This document shows, piece by piece, positions 32,729 through 43,986 of a DNA stretch of 64,000 bases (position 1 is the first letter of the stretch; every line of letters begins with the position of its first letter). The notes beneath the pieces are model-generated. The model was given only the letters and a program-made list of their open reading frames with translations. It ran no database searches and was not told where the DNA came from. The stretch is from Microcoleus sp. FACHB-672 (GTDB lineage Bacteria > Cyanobacteriota > Cyanobacteriia > Cyanobacteriales > Oscillatoriaceae). Position numbers and translations under genes: made by a program. Where the stretch lies: positions 310,001 to 374,000 of the forward strand of contig NZ_JACJOU010000007.1 in assembly GCF_014695725.1 (NCBI RefSeq), read 5' to 3'.

Positions 32729-34378
32729 CTATTTCTTGATTGTCCAGAAAGGAACTCTTTGAGTCGGTTCTAAGCGAAGTCCCTCAATGCCTTTTTGAGC
32801 AAACAAGTATTCTTTACCTTCCCATAAGGGGATAAAAGGTACATCTTTGGCGAGAATATCTTGCAGTTCGCTAAAGATTTTTTGACGAGCTTGTGGGTTT
32901 TGTTCCTGACGTTGCTTGTCAATTAATTCGTTAACTCGTTCGTTGTAGTAGAACGAGCCTTGAGCTTTCGTTGAGCCGTCCTCACAACCTGTTGCTGCTG
33001 ACCCTTTCACACAATCCATGAACGGTTGAATGTAGTTATCAGGATCTAAAAAGTCGGGACTCCAATCTAGCAAAAACATGGGATAGATGCCTTTATCTAG
33101 ATTTTGGTAGGCAGTGGTGGATTCAACACTTTTCAGATCAATTTCCATCACGCCGCCTAATTTTTGCTGAACTGCCGCTTTGATCGTACTGGCGGCTAAT
33201 CCATCCGTGGTTAAGTTAGAGCGATACCAAAGCTCTAATCTTAGTGGGTTGCTTCTAGAGTAACCGGCTTTTGTAAGAGCTTCGTGAGCTTTAACCGCAT
33301 TGCCATCGCCATATTGGTCTTTAAAAACCGGCTTATAGGCATCTGGTAAGGTGAGAGGCACTAAACTGTGAAGCGGTTCGACTTGACCCCGAAAGACTCG
33401 CTCTTGCAACTGAGTTCGGTCAATAATTGCAGCGAGTGCTTGCCGCACTGCCACATTGTCTAATGGCTTTTCTTTGATGTTAAGGGTTAAGTAATAAATC
33501 CCATTACTGCGTCCCTCTAGCACCTGCCAACCGCCAGAACCGGCTTGCTTTTGTAAATCGGCAATTTGATCGAGATCGAGCGATTGGAAGGCAACATCCA
33601 CTGCGCGGGTGCGAAATCCATTGTACAAATTTGATGGACTTGTATAGCGTTGAATATCAATTCCTTTATTCGCCGGCTTCTCGCCCCAATACCGATCAAA
33701 AGCGTCTAATTTGATTGTCTCATTACTATAGTTAAGGGCTAATTGGTAAGGGCCGGTGCCAACAAATTTATCGCTAAATTTCCCCGCTCCAATTTCATAG
33801 GCTTTTGGCGATACTGCACAAGCTCCAAAAAATGTTAATAAATCGGGAAAGGCGGCAAAGGGTTTTTTCAACTTGATGGTTAATTCATACTCGCCGGTTG
33901 CCGCGACAGAATCCACCGTATCTGATAGCAATACGGAGGGGCTACCTTGGTTTTCAATAAACCGCTTGAGTGAAAACTCCATCGCTGCGGCATTGAAGGG
34001 TTCGCCATCGTGGAAAACGACACCCTGACGCAGGGGAATGGTGTAGGTTAAACCATCTTTACTAATTTTGGGCAACTCTGTGGCGAGTTGAGGTTTGAGA
34101 TCGGTGGTTCCCGACTCGTAGGTATAGAGGCGATCACCAAGGTTGTGAAGCAAGGTGGCGGCAGCAACTTCATAGGCATCAGCGGGGTCTAACGTGCGGA
34201 TCTTGGCGGTTGTGCCAATGCTAATGCGACCTGTATTGGTGCCGGTGTTTGCTGGGGTTGTTGACTGTTTTTGTCCGCAACTGACGGCGAGAAAACAGCA
34301 AATACAGAATAAACTAAGGAATTTTCCCATGAACCGCCACTGGCGTTGGGCAAACTTTGCGAGATATTTGTGCGACAT
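32729..34378 (-). CDS. Family 5 extracellular solute-binding lipoprotein (DppA/OppA type), copy 1
   Basis: About 549 residues. A lipoprotein signal peptide (FLSLFCICCFLAVSCGQ) gives a lipid-modified Cys. The SBP_bac_5 signature is clear (LATELPKISKDGLTYTIPLRQGVVFHDGEPFNAAAMEFSLKRF). It should capture peptides or related ligands in the periplasm. I chose ATG 34378 by alignment with the adjacent paralogue; ATG 34330 and a start at 34429 are alternatives. It is a tandem duplicate of the next gene and precedes the DppB-like permease by 123 bases. Confidence 0.9.
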   Translation of the reverse strand: MSHKYLAKFAQRQWRFMGKFLSLFCICCFLAVSCGQKQSTTPANTGTNTGRISIGTTAKIRTLDPADAYEVAAATLLHNLGDRLYTYESGTTDLKPQLATELPKISKDGLTYTIPLRQGVVFHDGEPFNAAAMEFSLKRFIENQGSPSVLLSDTVDSVAATGEYELTIKLKKPFAAFPDLLTFFGACAVSPKAYEIGAGKFSDKFVGTGPYQLALNYSNETIKLDAFDRYWGEKPANKGIDIQRYTSPSNLYNGFRTRAVDVAFQSLDLDQIADLQKQAGSGGWQVLEGRSNGIYYLTLNIKEKPLDNVAVRQALAAIIDRTQLQERVFRGQVEPLHSLVPLTLPDAYKPVFKDQYGDGNAVKAHEALTKAGYSRSNPLRLELWYRSNLTTDGLAASTIKAAVQQKLGGVMEIDLKSVESTTAYQNLDKGIYPMFLLDWSPDFLDPDNYIQPFMDCVKGSAATGCEDGSTKAQGSFYYNERVNELIDKQRQEQNPQARQKIFSELQDILAKDVPFIPLWEGKEYLFAQKGIEGLRLEPTQRVPFWTIKK

Positions 34379-34464
34379 TTCCCTAAAACCTATGCCTTGG
34401 AGTCTGAAGTCTAGTCGATAGTACGACATTCAGCAATCTCTGAGCTTATCAGCTTTTAGTTTTC

Positions 34465-36108
34465 CTAATTAGCTGAGGATTTGCGAATTGTCCACAGGGG
34501 TAACTGCTGAGTGGGATCGAGATGGATGCCGGTGATGCCTTTCTGGACAAAGGCGTAATCTTTGTTCTGCCAGAGAGGGATGTACGGGACATCTTGGGCG
34601 ATGATGTCCTGAATTTGGCTAAAAATTGCTTTGCGCCTTGGGGGGTTAAGTTCTTTTCGCTCTTGATCAATCAGCTGGTTGATGCGGTTGCTGTAATAAA
34701 ATGAACCGAGGGTTTGACTGCTTCCTAACCGGCAGCCGGCTTTGGGTGTGCCTTGGCTACAGGAAAGAAAGGGCTGAATGTAATTATCGGCGTCAAAAAA
34801 ATCTGGAAACCAGTCGAGTAAAAAGGTTTGGTAGATACCTTTTTCTAAGTTACTGAAAGCGGTTGCAGATTCTACGCTGTTGATTTCTAGTTGCAACCGT
34901 CCACCAAGTTGTTGTTGGGCAATTGCTTTCAGGGTGCCGGCAACCCTTGCTCTGATATTGGATTGAGAAGGATACCAAATTTCAAGTTTTAGGGGTTTTT
35001 CTGGGGTGTAACCGGCTTTTTGCAGCAGTTGTTTGGCTTTGGCGCTATCTGTGTCTCCGTAGCGTTCTTTAAAGGCTGGTTTGTGAACGTCAAACGTGGT
35101 GGGAATCATACTGTAAAGCGGTTCTGACTGTCCGTAACGGACACGATCAATCAGTAATTGCCGGTCAACAATTGCAGTGATCGCTTGTCTGATTTCTGGG
35201 TTATTTAAAGGCGGTTTGCTGGTGTTGAGTACCCAGTAGCTAACATAATTTCCTGGGGCGCTGATCGTCTGCCAACCTTGAGCCGGCGACTGCTTTTCTA
35301 AACTTTGAATTTGTTCGCTGTCGAGTTCTTGATAAGCGATATCGACTGCGCCGGTTGTAAATGCACTATAAAGATTGGCGGGACTGGTGAAAAATTGCAC
35401 GTCAACGCCTTGGTTGGCCGGTTTTTCTCCCCAATATTGCTCAAAAATATCTAATTTAAGGGAATCAGTCCCATAATTAACTAATTTATAAGGGCCGGTG
35501 CCGGCAAAGGTATCTGGCTTGAATTTGCCGGCACCCATTTCATAAGTTTTGGGGGAAACAGCACAAAGTCCGCTAAAGGTCAAGAGTGAGGGAAAGGCGG
35601 CAAACGGTTTTTTCAGTTGAATGGTTAATTCATACTCGCCGGTGGCTCGCACCGAGTCTACAATGTCTGCAAGCAAGGCTGAGGGGTTGCCCTGATTGTC
35701 CATGAACCGTTGCAGGGAAAATGCCATTGTTTTGGCGTCGAAGGGTGTGCCATCGTGGAAAACAACGCCTTTACGCACCGGCACGCGATAGGTTAAACCG
35801 TCTTTGCTAATTTTGGGTAAGGCTGTGGCGAGTTGCGGTTGAATCTCGGTTGTGCCCGGTTTGTAGGTGTAGAGGCGTTCGCCGAGGTTGCTGATCCAAG
35901 TGCTTGCTGCCTGTTCGTAGGCATCCGCGGGATCAATTGTGCGAATTTTTAAGGTTGTGCCGATGCTAATGCGCTGATTGCCGGCATTGGGTGTTCGATC
36001 TGCCGGTTTTTGAGTACAACTAAGAATGAGAAAACAGCAAATGCAGAATAAACAGAGGAATTGTCCAATTTGCTGCCACGGCTGGATCGATAGGCGTTGC
36101 CGGTTCAT
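34465..36108 (-). CDS. Family 5 extracellular solute-binding lipoprotein (DppA/OppA type), copy 2
   Basis: 547 residues, closely similar along its length to the gene downstream (identical stretches such as LPKISKDGLTY and ELTIQLKKPFAAFP, or near-identical). The lipobox is LILSCTQ. The ligand-contact loops differ between the copies (for example SNGIYYLTLNIKEKPLDN against GNYVSYWVLNTSKPPLNN), which suggests different ligand preference. It is the first gene of the leftward cluster of two binding proteins, one permease and Uma2. Confidence 0.9.
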   Translation of the reverse strand: MNRQRLSIQPWQQIGQFLCLFCICCFLILSCTQKPADRTPNAGNQRISIGTTLKIRTIDPADAYEQAASTWISNLGERLYTYKPGTTEIQPQLATALPKISKDGLTYRVPVRKGVVFHDGTPFDAKTMAFSLQRFMDNQGNPSALLADIVDSVRATGEYELTIQLKKPFAAFPSLLTFSGLCAVSPKTYEMGAGKFKPDTFAGTGPYKLVNYGTDSLKLDIFEQYWGEKPANQGVDVQFFTSPANLYSAFTTGAVDIAYQELDSEQIQSLEKQSPAQGWQTISAPGNYVSYWVLNTSKPPLNNPEIRQAITAIVDRQLLIDRVRYGQSEPLYSMIPTTFDVHKPAFKERYGDTDSAKAKQLLQKAGYTPEKPLKLEIWYPSQSNIRARVAGTLKAIAQQQLGGRLQLEINSVESATAFSNLEKGIYQTFLLDWFPDFFDADNYIQPFLSCSQGTPKAGCRLGSSQTLGSFYYSNRINQLIDQERKELNPPRRKAIFSQIQDIIAQDVPYIPLWQNKDYAFVQKGITGIHLDPTQQLPLWTIRKSSAN

Positions 36109-36708: not shown

Positions 36709-37110
36709 TCGTAATCTGTGCCGATTTTGTTAAAAATCTATACCAACTGAATTGAATCAGGTTTGGTAAACGTAACTAGAGCGCTAAGCAGTCAACAGGA
36801 GGTTTAAGCTAAGACTGTTAAGCAGCGGCACAAGTAGAGCCGGACGACACTGATTAGCGAAGCAGATCGGTATGAAAACCCCGACCTCAACGAAGCAGGT
36901 CGGGGATATTCATTTTTAATGATAAATAGGCAAATTTTAAATTGTTTAAACCGGCAGATTCTAGCTTGGATTTAACTGATCAAACTTATTCATTGATTTT
37001 TAAATAAACCGAATTGCCTGAATCAGGAGTTGCCGGCAGGGTTCACTTCATCACAACCTTGACTGAAGTTAACCAAAATGATAAAATTCATTTAGTTAAT
37101 TCACATCTTG
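36709..37110. other. Gene-free stretch before the first c-di-AMP riboswitch
   Basis: No ORF can be supported. The only clear element is the hairpin at 36879-36912. The stretch 36910-37110 is AT-rich and probably contains the promoter for the riboswitch-led permease gene. Confidence 0.5.
36879..36912 (+). terminator. Hairpin/terminator, possibly end of a small RNA
   Basis: Nine-base stem CCCCGACCT (36879-36887) and AGGTCGGGG (36897-36905), then an AT-rich tail. It is 170 bases past the preceding gene. It could end that mRNA or an independent small RNA spanning about 36730-36912; no promoter can be assigned. Confidence 0.6.
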
Positions 37111-37279
37111 TCAGCCTAATCCATTTTAGTTAACTTCAAGCAAAATTTACTTGAAGCCTAATAATGGAGCGGAGGAACCAAAAACCTTCTTTGGGGCTTA
37201 TCTTCTTGGGAAAACAGAAGAAGGGCACCTCTCAGCCCTAGCCCGTCAGCTAACTTCGCAGGCAATGAGAGGGGACTGA
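37111..37279 (+). promoter_or_regulatory. c-di-AMP riboswitch (ydaO/yuaA class) 1, upstream of NhaD-like permease
   Basis: The conserved blocks occur in order: CCTAATCC near the 5' end, GGAGCGGAGGAACCAA, TTTGGGGCTTATC, and CCCTAGCCCGTCAGCTAAC followed by TTCGCAGGC. These match the ydaO/yuaA consensus. The closing stem is TCAG-CCT (37111-37117) with AGG-GGA-CTGA (37270-37279). About 437 bases separate it from the permease start; a weak hairpin with TTTT at 37358-37387 may be the expression platform. In known examples c-di-AMP binding turns the downstream gene off. Confidence 0.9.
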
Positions 37280-37716
37280 AGAGACAGCATTTTTCCATCA
37301 AAAGTGGTCTGATCTCATCAGCTTCCCCGGCGCATTCCGGTGCGCTCAAATAAACTTAACATCCCCTCAAGAGCGAGCGGATGTTTTGCATAATTATCGG
37401 CTTTGAGCCAGGGAGGCTTTATGAGGTTTTATAGCATAGTCTTTAAGAGCTGTAGCCGCTGTAACTGTGTGGAGTGTAATAGAAATTTGCCCTGTGCTCT
37501 TGCGCGGCATTTGATTGTAAGACCAGCTAACAAATTTAATCGTTACCATCCTTGTTAGCATCAATCTTCAATCTTAATACCTACTGGCAAGCCGGCAACT
37601 AAAAATACTCGCGTTGCTCACAGGGCTACATCGCTTATGGGTTCTTTTCCAGATTGAAACTTGATACGGCAGAGAAATCGCTCCAGTCTGTTAAACCCAA
37701 CTTACTATTTAGCTCA
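37280..37716. other. Long leader between riboswitch 1 and the permease gene
   Basis: 437 bases with no supported gene. Two hairpins are visible: GCGCA...TGCGC at about 37331-37345 and AACATCC (37358-37364) with GGATGTT (37379-37385) followed by TT. The second is a candidate intrinsic terminator controlled by the aptamer. An upstream TTG at 37654 would extend the permease by 21 residues. Confidence 0.45.
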
Positions 37717-39054
37717 ATGGAAAACTGGCAAGCTATTGTCGCCACAGTAACCTTTATCAGCGTAATTTTCTTAATTATGACTGAGTGGTTGCACCTAGTG
37801 ATTGCAGCTTTTTTGGGGGCATTAATCCTGGTGTTTACCCACATCATGACTTTAAACGAAGCGATCGGCTATATCAGCCGCAGTCACGCAACATTGGGTT
37901 TATTCTTCGGAGTCATGGTACTGGTGCGAGCATTTGAGCCGACTAAAATCTTTGAATACTTAGGGACTCAAATAGTTATCTTGGCTCAAGGAAAAGGCAA
38001 GCGACTTTTGCTTGCCATTGTCGGCATTACAACCCCCATTTGTGCAGTTTTACCCAATGCCACAACCGTGATGCTGCTTGCGCCTTTACTGCCGCCAATG
38101 GCAGCAGAAATAGGCGTTGATTTTGTTCCTTTACTGATTCTGATGGTGTTTGTGGCTAACAGCGCGGGACTGCTGACACTTGTTGGCGATCCTGCGACGT
38201 TTATTGTAGGTGATGCCGTCAATATTAGCTTTGTAGATTATCTACTCCAATTAAGTTTTGGTGGAATTCTGGCAATCGGAACGATCTTAATCATGCTACC
38301 GTGGTTATTTCCCAAAACTTGGCGCAAAGAATTGGATAATTTGGAGGAATTACCCCATCCTCAAATTAATCACCCCCGAATTTTAGCAGTAGGGGCTTTA
38401 ATTGTCGCCTTTGTTTTAGTGTTCTTTGTTGTAGGAGAATCGCTCCCGATACCCATCTCACCGGCAACCGTTGCCTTATTAGGAGCGGCTTTAGCTTTGC
38501 TTCTCGCTCATCACAGCAACATTGATTCTGTCAACAATATATTGCGGGATGTAGACTGGAGTACCTTAATATTTTTTATGTGTACCTTTGTTCTGATAGG
38601 CGGACTGGAAAAAACAGGGGTCATCAAAGGTTTGTCTGGGGTACTCGCCGTGATACTGGGAAAAAATATTGCCTTAGGTTCACTGTTTCTCCTATTTTTC
38701 GTGGGTTTACTGTCCAGTGTGATCCCCAATATTCCGCTTGTGGTGGCAATGGTGCCATTACTTAAACAATACGTTGTCAATATTGGTTTAGCAGCCCCAG
38801 AAGTGCTAGATCCTAACTTTCAGGGGCAGTTTCCCCCTGTGGTTCTTCCGTTGTTTTATGCCATGATGTTTGGCGCAACTTTGGGAGGAAATGGAACCCT
38901 AGTCGGCGCTTCTTCTAATATCGTCGCGGCGGGGGTTTCAGAGCTGCACGGACGCCGGATTTCATTTAAAACGTTTCTGCGTTACGGCATCCCAGTAATG
39001 GCGATGCAATTGCTAGTTGCTGCTTTGTATATGACGTTTCGATTTCTAATTTAA
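37717..39054 (+). CDS. NhaD/ArsB-type ion transporter (SLC13 superfamily) under c-di-AMP riboswitch
   Basis: About 445 residues with 11-12 membrane helices. Signatures are SHATLGLFFGVMVLVRAFEPTKIFEYLG, the re-entrant loop AVLPNATTVMLLAPLLPPM, VGDPATFIVGDAV, SVIPNIPLVVAMVPL and GATLGGNGTLVGASSNIVAAG. These fit the NhaD/ArsB group, which moves sodium/protons or oxyanions. No arsenic genes are nearby. Since c-di-AMP governs potassium and osmotic balance in other bacteria, a cation/proton or ion-balance role is favoured, but this is inference. I chose ATG 37717 (MENWQAIVATVTF). Confidence 0.88.
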   Translation: MENWQAIVATVTFISVIFLIMTEWLHLVIAAFLGALILVFTHIMTLNEAIGYISRSHATLGLFFGVMVLVRAFEPTKIFEYLGTQIVILAQGKGKRLLLAIVGITTPICAVLPNATTVMLLAPLLPPMAAEIGVDFVPLLILMVFVANSAGLLTLVGDPATFIVGDAVNISFVDYLLQLSFGGILAIGTILIMLPWLFPKTWRKELDNLEELPHPQINHPRILAVGALIVAFVLVFFVVGESLPIPISPATVALLGAALALLLAHHSNIDSVNNILRDVDWSTLIFFMCTFVLIGGLEKTGVIKGLSGVLAVILGKNIALGSLFLLFFVGLLSSVIPNIPLVVAMVPLLKQYVVNIGLAAPEVLDPNFQGQFPPVVLPLFYAMMFGATLGGNGTLVGASSNIVAAGVSELHGRRISFKTFLRYGIPVMAMQLLVAALYMTFRFLI

Positions 39055-39113
39055 GTAAAGATTGAATAGATTTACTCCTCAAGGGAGATTAATTATTCAA
39101 AAGTCTGTGTTCT

Positions 39114-39127
39114 GTAAACTGCTATAC
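39114..39127 (+). promoter_or_regulatory. Candidate NtcA box upstream of the ABC operon
   Basis: GTAAACTGCTATAC is an exact GTA-N8-TAC, 60 bases before riboswitch 2. A TACACT at 39162 could be the -10, but the spacing of 34 bases is longer than usual. If real, it would add nitrogen control to c-di-AMP control. Confidence 0.4.
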
Positions 39128-39186
39128 AAAAAGGTGGATTGACGAATTGGAATTCTAAAGCTACACTTAAAAAAATCTAATAAGTA

Positions 39187-39354
39187 AAGTCAGCCTAATC
39201 CAAAGTTTTATCTAATCAACGGATGAAATCGGAGCGGAGGAACCAATTCATGGGGCTTATCTCTATCTCTTATTATTCTTAAAAAGAGGCATCGAGAAGG
39301 GCATCTCTCAGCCCTAGCCCGTCAGCTAACTTCGCAGGCACTGAGAGGAGACTT
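39187..39354 (+). promoter_or_regulatory. c-di-AMP riboswitch (ydaO/yuaA class) 2, upstream of the nitrate/bicarbonate-family ABC operon
   Basis: Has CCTAATCC, GGAGCGGAGGAACCAA, ATGGGGCTTATC and CCCTAGCCCGTCAGCTAAC then TTCGCAGGC, in consensus order. The closing stem is AAGT-CAG-CCT (39187-39196) with AGG-AG-ACTT (39346-39354). The outer pairs differ from riboswitch 1 yet still pair, which supports a real structure. The remaining leader to the start codon is about 149 bases. Confidence 0.9.
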
Positions 39355-39503
39355 AGGAAAGTAATGAACAGTGAACAGTGAGCGATGAAGCGCCAGATTT
39401 GGGATTTATCATACATAGTTCATAATTCATAGTTCCGAAGTGTCTCCGGTTGGTATGGGTCTGTCTTGTTGTACCTACCCCTGGCTCTGAGGAGTTTTTT
39501 TAT

Positions 39504-40352
39504 ATGGCAATTCAGTTGAATTTGTCGATGATTGCGGTGGCTGGACAAGCCACTTGGAAACGGGCTAAACCTATGATTGTCCGGGATGTGGTGTTACTCC
39601 CGGCAGCCGGATTTTTAGGAATTATTGTGCTGTGGTGGATTGTGGCTTTGTTCCACAAGGAATTAATTCCCACACCCCCTCAAGCACTGGCCGCAAATTG
39701 GGATTACATTACTCATCCATTTTATAAGCGCGGCCCAGGAGATTTAGGCATTGGTTGGTTATTAATTGCCAGTATCCGCCGGGTTTTACTCGGCTTTGGT
39801 TTAGGCGCTCTGGTTGCCATCCCACTCGGTTTTTTGATTGGGATGTCCAAAAAAGCAATGATGGCGCTCAATCCGCTTGTTCAAATCTTCAAGCCAGTGT
39901 CACCGCTTGCTTGGCTGCCGATTGCCTTAGCGATCTTTAACTTGGCCGAGCCATCCTCAATCTTTGTGATATTTATCACCTCTTTGTGGCCAACAATTAT
40001 TAACACTGCCCTTGGTGTTTCTAGCGTTTCCAAAGATTATTTGGATGTGGCGCGGGTGTTAGAAATGCCGCGCTGGCGACGGATTACTAAAATTATCTGG
40101 CCGGCAAGTTTGCCTTATATTTTCACCGGCTTGCGAATTAGCTTAGGGATTGCGTGGCTGGTGATCGTTGCGGTGGAAATGCTCACCGGCGGCATTGGTA
40201 TTGGCTTTTTCGTGTGGGATGAATGGAGCCGGCTGAATTTAAGTTCTGTATTTCTCGCCATTCTGGTTATTGGATTAACCGGACTTCTCTTAGACTGGGC
40301 GGTTGGCAAAATAGAGGAATTGATCACGCACCGTCCCTCACGCAGCACCTAA
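39504..40352 (+). CDS. ABC transporter permease, nitrate/sulfonate/bicarbonate (NrtB/CmpB/SsuC) family
   Basis: About 282 residues with six helices. The N-terminal MAIQLNLSM is followed by DVVLLPAAGFLGIIVLWWIVALFHKELIPTPPQAL, and the EAA motif is SVSKDYLDVARVLEMPRWRRITKIIWPASLPYIFTGLRISLGIAWLVIVAVEML, characteristic of the NrtB/CmpB group. GAGGAG lies 9 bases before ATG 39504; an in-frame start at 39450 is less likely. First gene of the operon behind riboswitch 2, followed by the binding protein and the ATPase. Confidence 0.93.
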   Translation: MAIQLNLSMIAVAGQATWKRAKPMIVRDVVLLPAAGFLGIIVLWWIVALFHKELIPTPPQALAANWDYITHPFYKRGPGDLGIGWLLIASIRRVLLGFGLGALVAIPLGFLIGMSKKAMMALNPLVQIFKPVSPLAWLPIALAIFNLAEPSSIFVIFITSLWPTIINTALGVSSVSKDYLDVARVLEMPRWRRITKIIWPASLPYIFTGLRISLGIAWLVIVAVEMLTGGIGIGFFVWDEWSRLNLSSVFLAILVIGLTGLLLDWAVGKIEELITHRPSRST

Positions 40353-40482
40353 ACGTAAACCGTCATTGTTAATAATTTTCAGCAAGTAGCGATTAGCTTA
40401 TTGCTGTCAGCAATCAGTGGCAAAAAATAATTGAAAGCTGACAAAACAGTAATCGCTGTGAAAGCGAGGATGAGACTGAAAT

Positions 40483-41928
40483 ATGAGTGATATCTCCCCA
40501 AAAGACTGGAGTCGGCGCGAGTTTTTGACAGGAATGGGTGCAGCGGCAGCGGGAATGGCGCTTTCTTCTTGTGCCATTAGTGGTGATCGTTCTGCCAAAG
40601 GACTCACCGAAGAAGCCTTGGAAATTAAACCAGTCGTCGATCCCAAAACCCTAGAAAAACCCAATCTCACCGTTGGATATGTGCCGGTGAACGACTGCGC
40701 CCCCTTTGCGATCGCCTGGAAAAAAGGGCTTTTCCGCAAGTATGGTTTAAACGTCACACTTAACCGCGAAGCCAGTTGGGCAACCTCTCGTGATGGCGTG
40801 ATTTTTGGCCGAACGGATGCCGCACCCGTTGTGTCTGGTGCTGTTACGAACGCCCGAATTGGAGCGGAAGGCGCACGTCACGCTCCCCTGTGTGCCGGCA
40901 TGACGATTCACCGGCACGGCAATGCCATGACGATGAACCGGAAAATGTGGGATTTTGGGTTGCGTCCTTGGTACGAATACAATGGCGACTTGGAAGCATT
41001 CGGCAAACAATTTAGAGCTTATTTTGAAAGCCAGTCAACAGAAAATAGAGTCTGGGCTGTTGTGCTGAGTTCTTCTATTTACGAATACTTTATCCGCTAT
41101 TTATCAGCGGCTGCCGGTATCGATCCGCTGAAAGAATTTCGCGTGATTATTGTTCCCCCGCCGCAAATGGTAACAAACGTGCGAATTGGGGCAATGCAAG
41201 CTTACATGGTGGCAGAACCCTGGAACACACGAGCCATTTACGAAAAAGCAACGAATGGGGATCAGGGAATTGGTTTTACCTTTGCTCAAGGTAAAGAAAT
41301 TTGGCTGGGACATCCAGATAGGCTGCTGGGAGTCATGGAATCTTTCATCGAAAAGTACCCTAAAACTTATCGTTCGCTGCTCAAGGCGATGATTGAAGCC
41401 TGCCAGTATTGCGGTGATCCCAACAATGGCGACGAAGTGGCAAAACTGCTGACAGAACGCTCTTTTACTGGCGCAAAACCGAAAACTGGGCCAGTTGATA
41501 AATTCACGCGACCGGCAATTGTAGGGGACTATAATTATGGTGGGTTTGATGGCAAAGAGCGGATTGTGAAATCACCGGACACCACAGTATTTTTTAACAT
41601 TCCCCCTAACATTCCTCAACAACCCGGAGAACACTCCACGTTTATGTGGCGTTCTCGAAGTATCTGGTTAATGACTCAAGCCGCTCGCTGGGGACAAATT
41701 AAACAGGTTCCCAAAAATGCGGAAGAACTAGCCAGCAAAGGCTGGAGATCAGATATTTATCGGGAGGTAGCGGCAGAGTTGGGAATTCCCTGCCCAAAAG
41801 ATGATTATAAGGTCGAACCCCCAGAGGTGTTTATCGATAAGAAAGGCTTCGACCCTAGCGATCCGGTGGGCTATCTCAACAGTTTTGAAATTAGAGCAAA
41901 TCGCCCCCAATCTTTGTTCATGTCTTAG
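40483..41928 (+). CDS. ABC transporter substrate-binding lipoprotein, NrtA/CmpA family
   Basis: 481 residues. The N-terminus combines a twin-arginine motif (SRREFLTG, R11-R12) and a lipobox ending in Cys30 (MALSSC). The NrtA/CmpA signatures are LTVGYVPVNDCAPFAIAWKKGLFRKYGLNVTL, REASWATSRDGVIFG, and AYMVAEPWNTRAIYE. Length and layout fit the nitrate/bicarbonate-binding proteins rather than the shorter SsuA type. The ligand cannot be decided: nitrate, bicarbonate, nitrite or another small anion is possible. Usual operons of this family (nrtABCD, cmpABCD) also have a fused ATPase-binding protein, absent here. Confidence 0.9.
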   Translation: MSDISPKDWSRREFLTGMGAAAAGMALSSCAISGDRSAKGLTEEALEIKPVVDPKTLEKPNLTVGYVPVNDCAPFAIAWKKGLFRKYGLNVTLNREASWATSRDGVIFGRTDAAPVVSGAVTNARIGAEGARHAPLCAGMTIHRHGNAMTMNRKMWDFGLRPWYEYNGDLEAFGKQFRAYFESQSTENRVWAVVLSSSIYEYFIRYLSAAAGIDPLKEFRVIIVPPPQMVTNVRIGAMQAYMVAEPWNTRAIYEKATNGDQGIGFTFAQGKEIWLGHPDRLLGVMESFIEKYPKTYRSLLKAMIEACQYCGDPNNGDEVAKLLTERSFTGAKPKTGPVDKFTRPAIVGDYNYGGFDGKERIVKSPDTTVFFNIPPNIPQQPGEHSTFMWRSRSIWLMTQAARWGQIKQVPKNAEELASKGWRSDIYREVAAELGIPCPKDDYKVEPPEVFIDKKGFDPSDPVGYLNSFEIRANRPQSLFMS

Positions 41929-42079
41929 CTGGGAGTTGGGAATGGCTAAGCTTTAATCATTATCTTTTCTGCACAAGATAGTTAATTTTTTGGATTTTTG
42001 ACCGCAGATACACGCAGATAAACTCACAGGCCGATAGAGCAGTGATAAGCGCTGAAAACGAGAAATCAGGAGTAAGGTT

Positions 42080-42919
42080 ATGACGAAATCTAGTTCTTTT
42101 CCAATGGGTGCTAATGAGAAAAGTGTTCGCAATGCGGGATTTTTAGAAATTGAAAACATCGTCAAAAGTTACACCAATCCGAATGGCGAGGAGACGGTGG
42201 TTTTAGATGGTGTCAACCTTACGGTTGGTGAGGATGAATATATTTCTGTTATTGGTCATTCGGGTTGTGGTAAATCAACCCTACTGAAAATGGTTGCCGG
42301 CTTGGAAAAACCGACTTCCGGCTCGGTGCGGCTGGATGGCAAAGAAATCCGTAAACCGGGCGCAGAGCGCATGATGGTCTTTCAACACTATGGACTGCTG
42401 CCGTGGTTGACGGTGCGCGAAAATATCCGGCTTGCGGTTGATGAAGTGTTAAAAAAAGCCAATCGTGCGGAAAAAATTAGCATTGTTAATGAACATCTAG
42501 CTATGGTGAACTTAACACCAGCCGCTGAGAAATATCCTGATGAAATTTCTGGGGGGATGAAACAGCGCGTCGGAATTGCACGAGCTTTGGCAACTCGCCC
42601 CAAAATGCTGTTAATGGATGAACCATTTGGAGCACTCGACGCATTGACGAGGGGCAAATTGCAAAAACAGGTACTTGATATTTGGGAAACCCAGCGGCAG
42701 GCTGTGATGATGATCACACACGATGTTGATGAAGCGATCTATATGTCTGATCGCATTGTGATGATGACAAATGGGCCGGCTGCGACAATTGGCGAAATTT
42801 TAGACGTTCCTTTCGCGCATCCACGAGATCGCCATGAATTGCGAGAATCTAAGGAATATTATGAACTGCGAAATCATGCTTTAGATTTCTTAGATCGCTA
42901 CTTTAATCAAGAAGAGTAG
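42080..42919 (+). CDS. ABC transporter ATP-binding protein, NrtD/CmpD family
   Basis: 279 residues. Walker A GHSGCGKST, Q-loop MVFQHYGLLPWLTV, signature ISGGMKQRVGIARALA, Walker B MLLMDEPFGALD and H-loop ITHDVDEAI are all present. The closest pattern is NrtD/CmpD/CynD. It completes a permease/binding protein/ATPase importer that would need only this ATPase as a homodimer. CAGGAGTAAGG precedes the ATG. Riboswitch 3 begins 32 bases after the stop codon, so the downstream stress gene has its own control. Confidence 0.93.
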   Translation: MTKSSSFPMGANEKSVRNAGFLEIENIVKSYTNPNGEETVVLDGVNLTVGEDEYISVIGHSGCGKSTLLKMVAGLEKPTSGSVRLDGKEIRKPGAERMMVFQHYGLLPWLTVRENIRLAVDEVLKKANRAEKISIVNEHLAMVNLTPAAEKYPDEISGGMKQRVGIARALATRPKMLLMDEPFGALDALTRGKLQKQVLDIWETQRQAVMMITHDVDEAIYMSDRIVMMTNGPAATIGEILDVPFAHPRDRHELRESKEYYELRNHALDFLDRYFNQEE

Positions 42920-42950
42920 ATTACACTAGGGTTAGGTTCATTTATTGAGT

Positions 42951-43100
42951 GGGTAGCCTAATCCAATCCAGACTGACATTTTATGCCGGTCAGGCTGGGA
43001 TATGGAACGGAGGAACCAATTTTTGGGGCTAATCTTACGAGAGAGACACCTTCCAGTCTTAGCCCGTCAGCTAACTCCGTCGGCAATGGGAGGAGCACCC
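42951..43100 (+). promoter_or_regulatory. c-di-AMP riboswitch (ydaO/yuaA class) 3, upstream of the universal stress protein
   Basis: Has CCTAATCC, GGAACGGAGGAACCAA, TTTGGGGCTAATC and TCTTAGCCCGTCAGCTAAC then TCCGTCGGC. The closing stem is GGGT-AG-CCT (42951-42959) with AGG-AGC-ACCC (43091-43100). It is the most diverged of the three (CTCCGTCGGC in place of CTTCGCAGGC), so it is not a fresh copy. About 133 bases remain to the start codon. Confidence 0.88.
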
Positions 43101-43233
43101 TAGACTTTGGCTTTTATAGCAGTTGTCATGGGAATCTCCTTGAGGATGTCACTGCAAATACACAGAAGAAGTGGCTATCCGTTCTTAACCCACCTCTCAT
43201 CCGTTATCCATTGATTTGAGAGAGGTTTAAGCT

Positions 43234-43986
43234 GTGAAGATCAAGCCAATGTTAGCGCGTCTAGAAAGCGCAATGGGCCGTCATGATTTAGTGGAACAAA
43301 TGGTTTTGCTGGCAGAACCGGCTTCTTCACATTCTCATTCAGAAAAATCTTCTGCAAAACCAATGAATTTGGTGGTTGGTTATAATAGCTCACCCAGAAG
43401 TCAAACAGCTCTAGACCTCACCTTGTGGATCGCCCACCAAACTCGTTTAGTCAGTCGCAAAAAAGTGACTGTTCAAGTTGTTTACGTTGTTGATGAAAAG
43501 ACAAACGCTCGGGGTTTAGATATTTTTAGCTTACCGGGGGCCGGCAGTTCATCAAAATCGCAAATTCCCTCAGAACTTTCAAAAGCACCGGCATTTAGTG
43601 CCAGTGCTGTTTTAGCTCAACCCGAAGTTAAAGCATTAGCCGCAAATGCGCGAATGACATCTGTAGATCGGCGCAACTACAAAACACTGCTCTCACCAAG
43701 CAATCAATTTGAGCAAGCCGATAAAATTTTATGGCAAGCCCGCTGCTTGGCTGAAGAATGGCGGGGTTCTTTTACGGCGCATCTGCGGTTTGGCTGCGTG
43801 GCGGAGGAACTGAGAAAAGTGGTGGAATCAGAAGCAGCGGATGTACTGTTTTTAGGGTGTCATTCTGCCGATCATCCGATTATCCGAAAACTCGGCGCTA
43901 AATTTCCGTGTTCCGTCTTGGGGATTCCATCGGCGTTGTGTTCGGAGGAAAAATGTAGTTTTTCATCAGAATTCAGCGCTATTTAA
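43234..43986 (+). CDS. Universal stress protein (UspA family)
   Basis: 250 residues, GTG start with GAGAGG about eight bases upstream. The core Usp alpha/beta pattern is visible: MNLVVGYNSSPRSQTALDLTLWIAHQTRL, VTVQVVYVVDE, and late WRGSFTAHLRFGCVAEELRKVVESEAADVLFLGCHS followed by PCSVLGIP. A linker of about 70 residues separates the halves of the fold. The usual ATP-binding G-2x-G-9x-G(S/T) loop is not evident, so it may be a non-ATP-binding type. It lies directly behind c-di-AMP riboswitch 3. Usp proteins act in stress and ion or osmotic responses. Confidence 0.85.
   Translation: MKIKPMLARLESAMGRHDLVEQMVLLAEPASSHSHSEKSSAKPMNLVVGYNSSPRSQTALDLTLWIAHQTRLVSRKKVTVQVVYVVDEKTNARGLDIFSLPGAGSSSKSQIPSELSKAPAFSASAVLAQPEVKALAANARMTSVDRRNYKTLLSPSNQFEQADKILWQARCLAEEWRGSFTAHLRFGCVAEELRKVVESEAADVLFLGCHSADHPIIRKLGAKFPCSVLGIPSALCSEEKCSFSSEFSAI

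Follow-up and report, generated by a model that had tools for sequence, protein, structure and literature searches.

A cluster of three predicted c-di-AMP riboswitches ahead of transport and stress genes in Microcoleus sp. FACHB-672

Three RF00379 aptamers and the genes behind them

The window analysed here is a 64-kb stretch of Microcoleus sp. FACHB-672 (contig NZ_JACJOU010000007.1, positions 310,001 to 374,000), and all positions below count from its first base. It carries three aptamers of the ydaO/yuaA class of cyclic di-adenosine monophosphate (c-di-AMP) riboswitches, each in front of a different transport or stress unit. A cmscan search of the window at gathering thresholds returned three matches, all to the Rfam model RF00379 and all on the forward strand, with scores of 62.2-78.5 bits, 24-40 bits above the gathering score of 38. 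The matches cover the model over its full length (positions 1-134), and the core letters of RF00379 are intact in all three copies. This agrees with a preliminary description of the locus, made from the sequence letters, which had claimed three c-di-AMP riboswitches. Its naming of the downstream genes also holds in Pfam and NCBIfam: copy 1 precedes an ArsB/NhaD-type permease, copy 2 an ATP-binding cassette (ABC) importer of the Nrt type, and copy 3 a universal stress protein (Usp) gene.

A genome-wide search with RF00379 (6.37 Mb, 99.84% complete; E ≤ 0.001) returned no aptamer beyond the three in the window. The same genome has one match to the diadenylate-cyclase (DAC) domain (133.4 bits, in an open frame), by which it is predicted to make c-di-AMP. 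Alternatively, the copies might by now bind a different ligand or none at all, a view with which their lineage-specific outer stem (see below) and long P2 insert would be compatible. We consider this very improbable in view of scores so far beyond the cut-off, the unchanged core letters, and the report that a cyanobacterial c-di-AMP riboswitch, before slr0753, has been verified (PMC10117731).

The aptamers likely begin at GCCTAATCC, found at 37114, 39193 and 42956 in copies 1, 2 and 3, respectively. In copies 1 and 3 the Rfam start sits within the long P2 insert, a hairpin that follows GCCTAATCC. Judged by conservation in relatives, the true 5' end of these two copies most likely lies upstream of the Rfam start, which favours the ends of the preliminary description over those of Rfam.

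The permease gene behind copy 1 encodes an ion permease of the ArsB/NhaD type, for which chloride is possibly the substrate. We take slr0753 of Synechocystis to belong to the same superfamily. In the importer unit behind copy 2, the permease and the ATPase pass the NCBIfam models TIGR01183 and TIGR01184, and the best solved relatives of the binding protein in the PDB are the C-terminal domains of CmpC/NrtC, followed by NrtA and CmpA. The unit resembles NrtABCD/CmpABCD in these respects and differs from them in having a single ATPase gene. The coordinates of all features are collected in Table 1.

Table 1. Genes, aptamers and leader elements of the locus (window positions; SD, Shine-Dalgarno)
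Feature	Position	Strand	Evidence or remark
ArsB/NhaD-type permease (CitMHS)	37717..39054	+	Pfam PF03600 201.6 bits, PF02040 50 bits; start set from relatives
ABC permease, NrtB type	39504..40352	+	NCBIfam TIGR01183 230.5 bits, cut-off 209.05
Substrate-binding protein, NMT1_2 family	40483..41928	+	Pfam; PDB matches
ABC ATPase, NrtC/D type	42080..42919	+	NCBIfam TIGR01184 365.9 bits, cut-off 291.8
Usp domain protein	43234..43986	+	Pfam PF00582 28.9 bits, cut-off 24; GTG start 43234
Aptamer 1	37107..37279	+	P0 5' strand to P0 3' strand; RF00379 match 37145-37278, 78.5 bits
Aptamer 1 P1	37114-37117 / 37260-37263	+	GCCT / AGGC
Aptamer 1 P7	37228-37233 / 37267-37272	+	CCTCTC / GAGAGG
Aptamer 1 long P2	37120-37125 / 37163-37168	+	TCCATT / AATGGA; read from sequence
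Aptamer 2	39186..39355	+	RF00379 match 39182-39355, 72.9 bits
Aptamer 2 P0	39187-39191 / 39350-39354	+	AAGTC / GACTT
Aptamer 2 P7	39304-39309 / 39343-39348	+	TCTCTC / GAGAGG
Aptamer 3	42949..43100	+	RF00379 match 42974-43100, 62.2 bits
Aptamer 3 P0	42951-42954 / 43097-43100	+	GGGT / ACCC; two bases off the usual register
Aptamer 3 P7	43049-43054 / 43088-43093	+	CCTTCC / GGGAGG
Copy 1 switch hairpin	37271..37328	+	Predicted: tail GGGGACTGA 37271-37279 with TCAGCTTCCCC 37318-37328; ViennaRNA fold
Copy 1 leader SD and ATG	37410..37423	+	AGGGAGG 37410-37416, ATG 37421-37423; predicted masked with tail held
Copy 2 downstream strand	39438..39447	+	AAGTGTCTCC; complementary to tail, can pair the SD region in folds
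SD region of the ABC permease gene	39487..39494	+	CTGAGGAG; gene start 39504
Copy 3 downstream strand	43130..43139	+	GGGAATCTCC with tail GGAGCACCC; class-wide pattern, own copy weak (score 11)
Copy 3 SD-masking hairpin	43192..43226	+	ACCTCTC 43192-43198 / GAGAGAGGT 43218-43226; before GTG 43234, fold of copy 3

An outer stem beyond P1 and the P7 pseudoknot

RF00379 matches were found in 93 of 386 genomes of the phylum and in 37 of 60 relatives (36 of them above the cut-off). The pooled set comprises 172 aptamers from 111 genomes; four (in G129, G233, G390 and G406) score less than the gathering threshold. Four aptamers (L106.0, L135.0, L178.0 and L186.0) have no landmarks and were dropped, and one of the remaining 168 (L058.0), whose 5' end is not clear, was left out of the outer-stem set.

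In these aptamers GCC pairs with GGC as P1, and the tail GAGAGG pairs with the P6 loop CCTCTC as the pseudoknot P7; both were placed in all three window copies. Among 151 distinct sequences 95.7% of the P7 cells are paired, and the covariation of P7 is 0.423 compared with 0.272 for shuffled partners (0 of 300 shuffles reach it). Outside P1 and P7 lies a further helix, designated P0, in which bases x-2..x-5 pair with t+10..t+13, where x is the first base of GCC and t the first base past GGC. Its four positions are paired in 84, 88, 80 and 85% of 141 distinct sequences, and covariation over six columns reaches 0.449 versus 0.223 for shuffled partners, a value attained by none of 500 shuffles. 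Eight slid registers gave at most 0.215. When the leaders are separated by downstream gene, no shuffle out of 500 reaches the observed fraction paired or the covariation in the Usp class or among the 'other' leaders; in the permease (ArsB/NhaD) leaders 0 of 500 reach the fraction and 5 of 500 the covariation.

P0 is absent at its register from 63 non-cyanobacterial aptamers among the matches listed (0.34 paired, 0.34 when shuffled), where 13 other registers are paired at 0.30-0.41. This control was restricted to aptamers with the exact CCGTCAGCTAACYYCG block; it was drawn from 80 of 119 stretches, with 67 of 82 sites used, of which 63 have record titles from outside the cyanobacteria. The tail letters of the searched phylum recur in four records with cyanobacterial titles, from Cuspidothrix, Leptolyngbyaceae, Geminocystis and Laspinema, three of the ABC/permease type and one of the Usp type.

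Within the window, copy 2 has the full P0 of 5 bp in the conserved register and copy 1 a P0 of 3 bp (GTC/GAC) in that register, while the 4-bp P0 of copy 3 is shifted two bases to the 3' side. The preliminary description had drawn closing stems TCAG/CTGA, AAGT/ACTT and GGGT/ACCC around a common CCT/AGG. The second and third of these exist, that of copy 3 off register, but the TCAG/CTGA of copy 1 lies in another register and CCT/AGG is not the inner partner: 5' GCC(T) pairs with (A)GGC in P1, and GAGAGG with CCTCTC in P7. The TCAG/CTGA register and the CCT/AGG inner pair were dropped for the P0, P1 and P7 registers, which covary. Covariation, also claimed there, is thin from three copies alone and holds over the 141 distinct sequences. 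On this comparative evidence the window aptamers are predicted to represent a cyanobacterial variant that has an additional closing stem, P0, beyond P1 and P7.

Competing helices in the leaders

In ABC-class leaders, the computed folds place the aptamer tail, a strand further downstream and the Shine-Dalgarno (SD) region in mutually exclusive helices. The tail (t+7..t+15) is complementary to the downstream strand in a class-by-class comparison: in the ABC-permease class the leaders' own tails score 15.97, compared with 11.88 for shuffled tails and 11.72 for tails of other leaders, and the corresponding values in the Usp class are 16.95, 10.26 and 12.73. For folding, 85 distinct leaders of the 102 in both classes were kept (51 ABC, one per genome, and 34 Usp); leaders without a recognised start, identical to another or outside 90-420 nt were dropped. 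Forcing the tail to remain unpaired, to mimic its retention in P7 and P0 (hereafter, tail held), raised the computed cost of opening the SD and start from 5.62 to 10.64 kcal/mol, with an increase of more than 0.5 in 50 of 51 ABC leaders. Control masks of equal length changed the cost by +0.21, and leaders whose middle had been shuffled showed a rise of +0.80. The partner of the SD with the tail held lies within 8 nt of the partner of the free tail in 43 of 51 leaders, and the start codon is found 93-164 nt (median 114) past P1. Opening costs rose from 4.17 to 7.5 in window copy 2, and from 4.97 to 5.99 and from 4.97 to 9.53 in its two genus mates.

The increase across the ABC leaders predicts a translational OFF switch, and translational repression is the most likely mechanism of copy 2. 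We infer the ligand response and the direction of the switch as follows. With c-di-AMP bound, the tail of copy 2 (GAGAGGAGACTT) would be kept in P7 and P0, so that the downstream strand would be released and could cover the SD region of the ABC permease gene by base pairing. Without c-di-AMP, the tail would capture the downstream strand, forming a long hairpin that leaves the start site open.

Instead of hiding the start site, the switches could act through transcription termination. The Bacillus prototype terminates transcription (PMC9960051), and at about 37358-37388 the copy 1 leader has, by eye, a terminator-like hairpin followed by TGTTTTG, which several family relatives keep with altered stem letters. 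The U-run is short, however, and the competition between SD and downstream strand is strong and specific in the ABC-class leaders, whose start codons lie 93-164 nt behind P1; we therefore regard termination as unlikely.

Several results weigh against the reading of a P0 variant with start-site hiding. P0 covariation is weak within the ABC-permease class alone, where 41 of 500 shuffles reach the fraction paired and 9 of 500 the covariation; its letters are nearly invariant in these leaders. Taken singly, the 9-mer scores of tail against strand in the window copies are not special (p 0.14, 0.24 and 0.22 for copies 1, 2 and 3). One ABC leader, L075.0, goes the opposite way, and the leaders are related, so that the counts are not independent. 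ViennaRNA folds without pseudoknots, which makes the held tail an imposed constraint. In the Usp leaders the opening cost rose from 9.21 to 10.63 (+1.42), by more than 0.5 in 23 of 34 and with a fall in 3; control masks gave -1.45 and a shuffled middle +0.66. At the permease's own start the mean rise was only 1.1, exceeding 0.5 in 21 of 38 leaders, and a score of 12.26 against 11.6 for shuffled and 11.1 for other tails gives no support for a helix between tail and downstream strand in the ArsB/NhaD class. Despite these points we consider it probable that the three copies are genuine ydaO/yuaA switches of RF00379 forming the whole detected regulon, that they represent the P0 variant, and that copy 2 acts by translational repression. 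Copies 1 and 3 are predicted to share the first half of this switch, with an output that may differ.

In the leader of copy 1, the switch hairpin is conserved in the alignment of family f1. An SD further downstream, AGGGAGG, is kept in 7 of 8 permease leaders of this family (L177.0 is without the motif), and the ATG behind it in several relatives. With the tail held this SD became masked in all 7 family f1 leaders tested, and its opening cost in copy 1 rose from 8.1 to 18.8. In a permease leader of another genome (L053:1-1135), the stretch separating the riboswitch from its gene retains a decayed N-terminus of an ABC permease (19 of 46 residues identical, E 3e-11 in a single comparison), and the leader start of copy 1 may likewise be a relic of an ABC-permease start. 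An open reading frame of 45 codons begins at this ATG (37410-37558 with its SD). It was considered as a leader peptide at 37421 and rejected: it has 11 codons in one genus mate, as read from the alignment, and another start in other relatives. Since it is not conserved, no coding gene is proposed.

In the leader of copy 3, holding the tail raised the opening cost from 10.3 to 14.9. Letters like those of its SD-masking hairpin occur in many Usp leaders, and in two Usp folds the SD hairpin of the start itself masks it whether the tail is free or held. For the Usp leaders as a class the effect of the held tail is not convincing. Invasion of the Usp SD hairpin by the 5' strand of P0 was also tried and rejected, because masking this strand changed the cost from 7.67 to 7.96 (by more than 0.5 in 16 of 34), compared with 7.78 for control masks. 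Masking the whole aptamer gave an opening cost of 10.3, with a rise in 30 of 34 leaders, suggesting that some part of the aptamer may compete.

A broader proposal gives these riboswitches a cyanobacterial architecture of their own, in which the 3' strand of P0 would take part in exclusive states: either P7 and P0 form and the freed strand sequesters the SD, or an anti-sequestor hairpin forms and the SD is open. This architecture would serve a dedicated regulon for stress and for the transport of ions and anions, and an ABC leader, start site included, would have been copied or fused before the permease gene, leaving the decayed start as a relic. We judge the chances of this combined proposal to be about even.

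Distribution of the regulon and relation to known systems

Downstream frames within 1.9 kb of each aptamer were matched to the five window proteins, counting matches above 80 bits and including fragments. By this measure one of the three units lies behind 154 of the 172 aptamers (ABC 68, Usp 44, permease 42), and none behind the other 18. The relatives search included two genomes of the same genus, and both have the arrangement permease-ABC-Usp with one switch each, as the present genome does; among the 111 genomes it is confined to this genus. The order permease-ABC-Usp belongs to family f1, and the 8 regions with the order ABC-Usp-permease, which have two switches, all come from family f6.

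In a comparison that left out the same genome and pairs more than 97% identical, the nearest neighbour of an aptamer by identity fell into its own class for 41 of 43 Usp, 50 of 59 ABC-permease and 23 of 42 permease aptamers; for 14 of the 42 ArsB/NhaD-class aptamers it lay in the ABC-permease class. The preliminary description had called the switches independent. This fits the grouping of the Usp and ABC aptamers by target but not the ArsB/NhaD ones, which often group with ABC. Its suggestion of a physically clustered regulon fares better, given that only the three aptamers were found in the genome, that both genus mates keep the cluster and that most aptamers of the pooled set precede the same three units. 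These could still be ordinary RF00379 copies brought together by an accident of gene order, without a shared physiological programme: just one match is present in 59 of the 111 genomes, a pair within 10 kb occurs in 26 of the 52 genomes with two or more, and the triple is a feature of one genus. Because the same three units recur in differing orders in families f1 and f6 and account for most aptamers, we find such an accident distinctly improbable, and a c-di-AMP riboswitch regulon of the lineage, physically clustered in this genus, is supported as a prediction from sequence.

Nine proteins behind eight of the 18 exceptional aptamers were scanned. They comprise two P-type cation ATPases, two Na+/H+-exchanger proteins with a Usp domain, two GT4 glycosyltransferases, an ExoD protein, an abhydrolase and one sub-threshold match to DUF937. 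The exchanger proteins (behind L152 and L144) join the transport and stress themes in one gene, and L080 matches L152 in gene length and aptamer score. The glycosyltransferases follow L126 and L191 and are perhaps sucrose-phosphate synthases; L164, L170 and L173 also precede genes of about 424-433 codons and are joined to these two by gene length and position only. Aptamers L120, L194, L158 and L106 are each followed by an incomplete ABC unit (a piece of the ATPase or of the binding protein, or a short permease piece) that appears to be decaying.

The ydaO/yuaA class is known in cyanobacteria (Nelson et al. 2013, as cited in PMC5986932). A 2013 survey linked the cyanobacterial switches to osmoprotectants (PMC5986932, PMC4284465), and ydaO regulons have been termed osmoregulatory (PMC3766115). 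The present aptamers share with this class a match along the whole model, the core blocks and both P1 and P7, and differ from it in the covarying P0, the long P2 hairpin of copies 1 and 3 and the predicted translational platform of the ABC class. In Synechocystis, the putative chloride efflux gene slr0753 is reported to be regulated by a c-di-AMP riboswitch (PMC10117731) and carries the same label in PMC9896922; Slr0753 was not seen in a salt proteome (PMC8670252). One switch is named in that case, whereas here three are clustered and also precede an Nrt-type ABC importer and a Usp gene.

For nlpC of Corynebacterium glutamicum, translational OFF control was described and stated to be unprecedented among c-di-AMP riboswitches (PMC9960051). 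The ABC class is predicted to share this mode of control. The nlpC case concerns a cell-wall gene of an actinobacterium and a suggested CTCC:GGAG pairing, which is simpler than the three-strand competition proposed here. A search for Usp, Nostoc and c-di-AMP switches led only to PMC5986932, where the one mention of Usp stands in the reference list. No open-licence paper joining c-di-AMP riboswitches and nitrate transport was found, and Nelson et al. 2013 may already list these genes. Thus the class is known, as is part of the regulon. In the accessible parts of the open-licence literature searched, no mention was found of the outer stem, of the three-strand platform or of the triple cluster.

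In cyanobacteria c-di-AMP has been tied to osmotic, salt and day-night physiology, with few effectors known (PMC5986932, PMC10117731). A three-unit riboswitch regulon would supply a short list of testable targets and would connect c-di-AMP with the transport of ions and with Nrt-type importers. The ABC leader would add a specific model of a translational switch to a class whose members are mostly described as acting by termination.

Upstream of the cluster, on the reverse strand at 32729-36108, two adjacent genes encode similar products of 566 and 547 amino acids, by eye solute-binding lipoproteins and perhaps a tandem duplicate.

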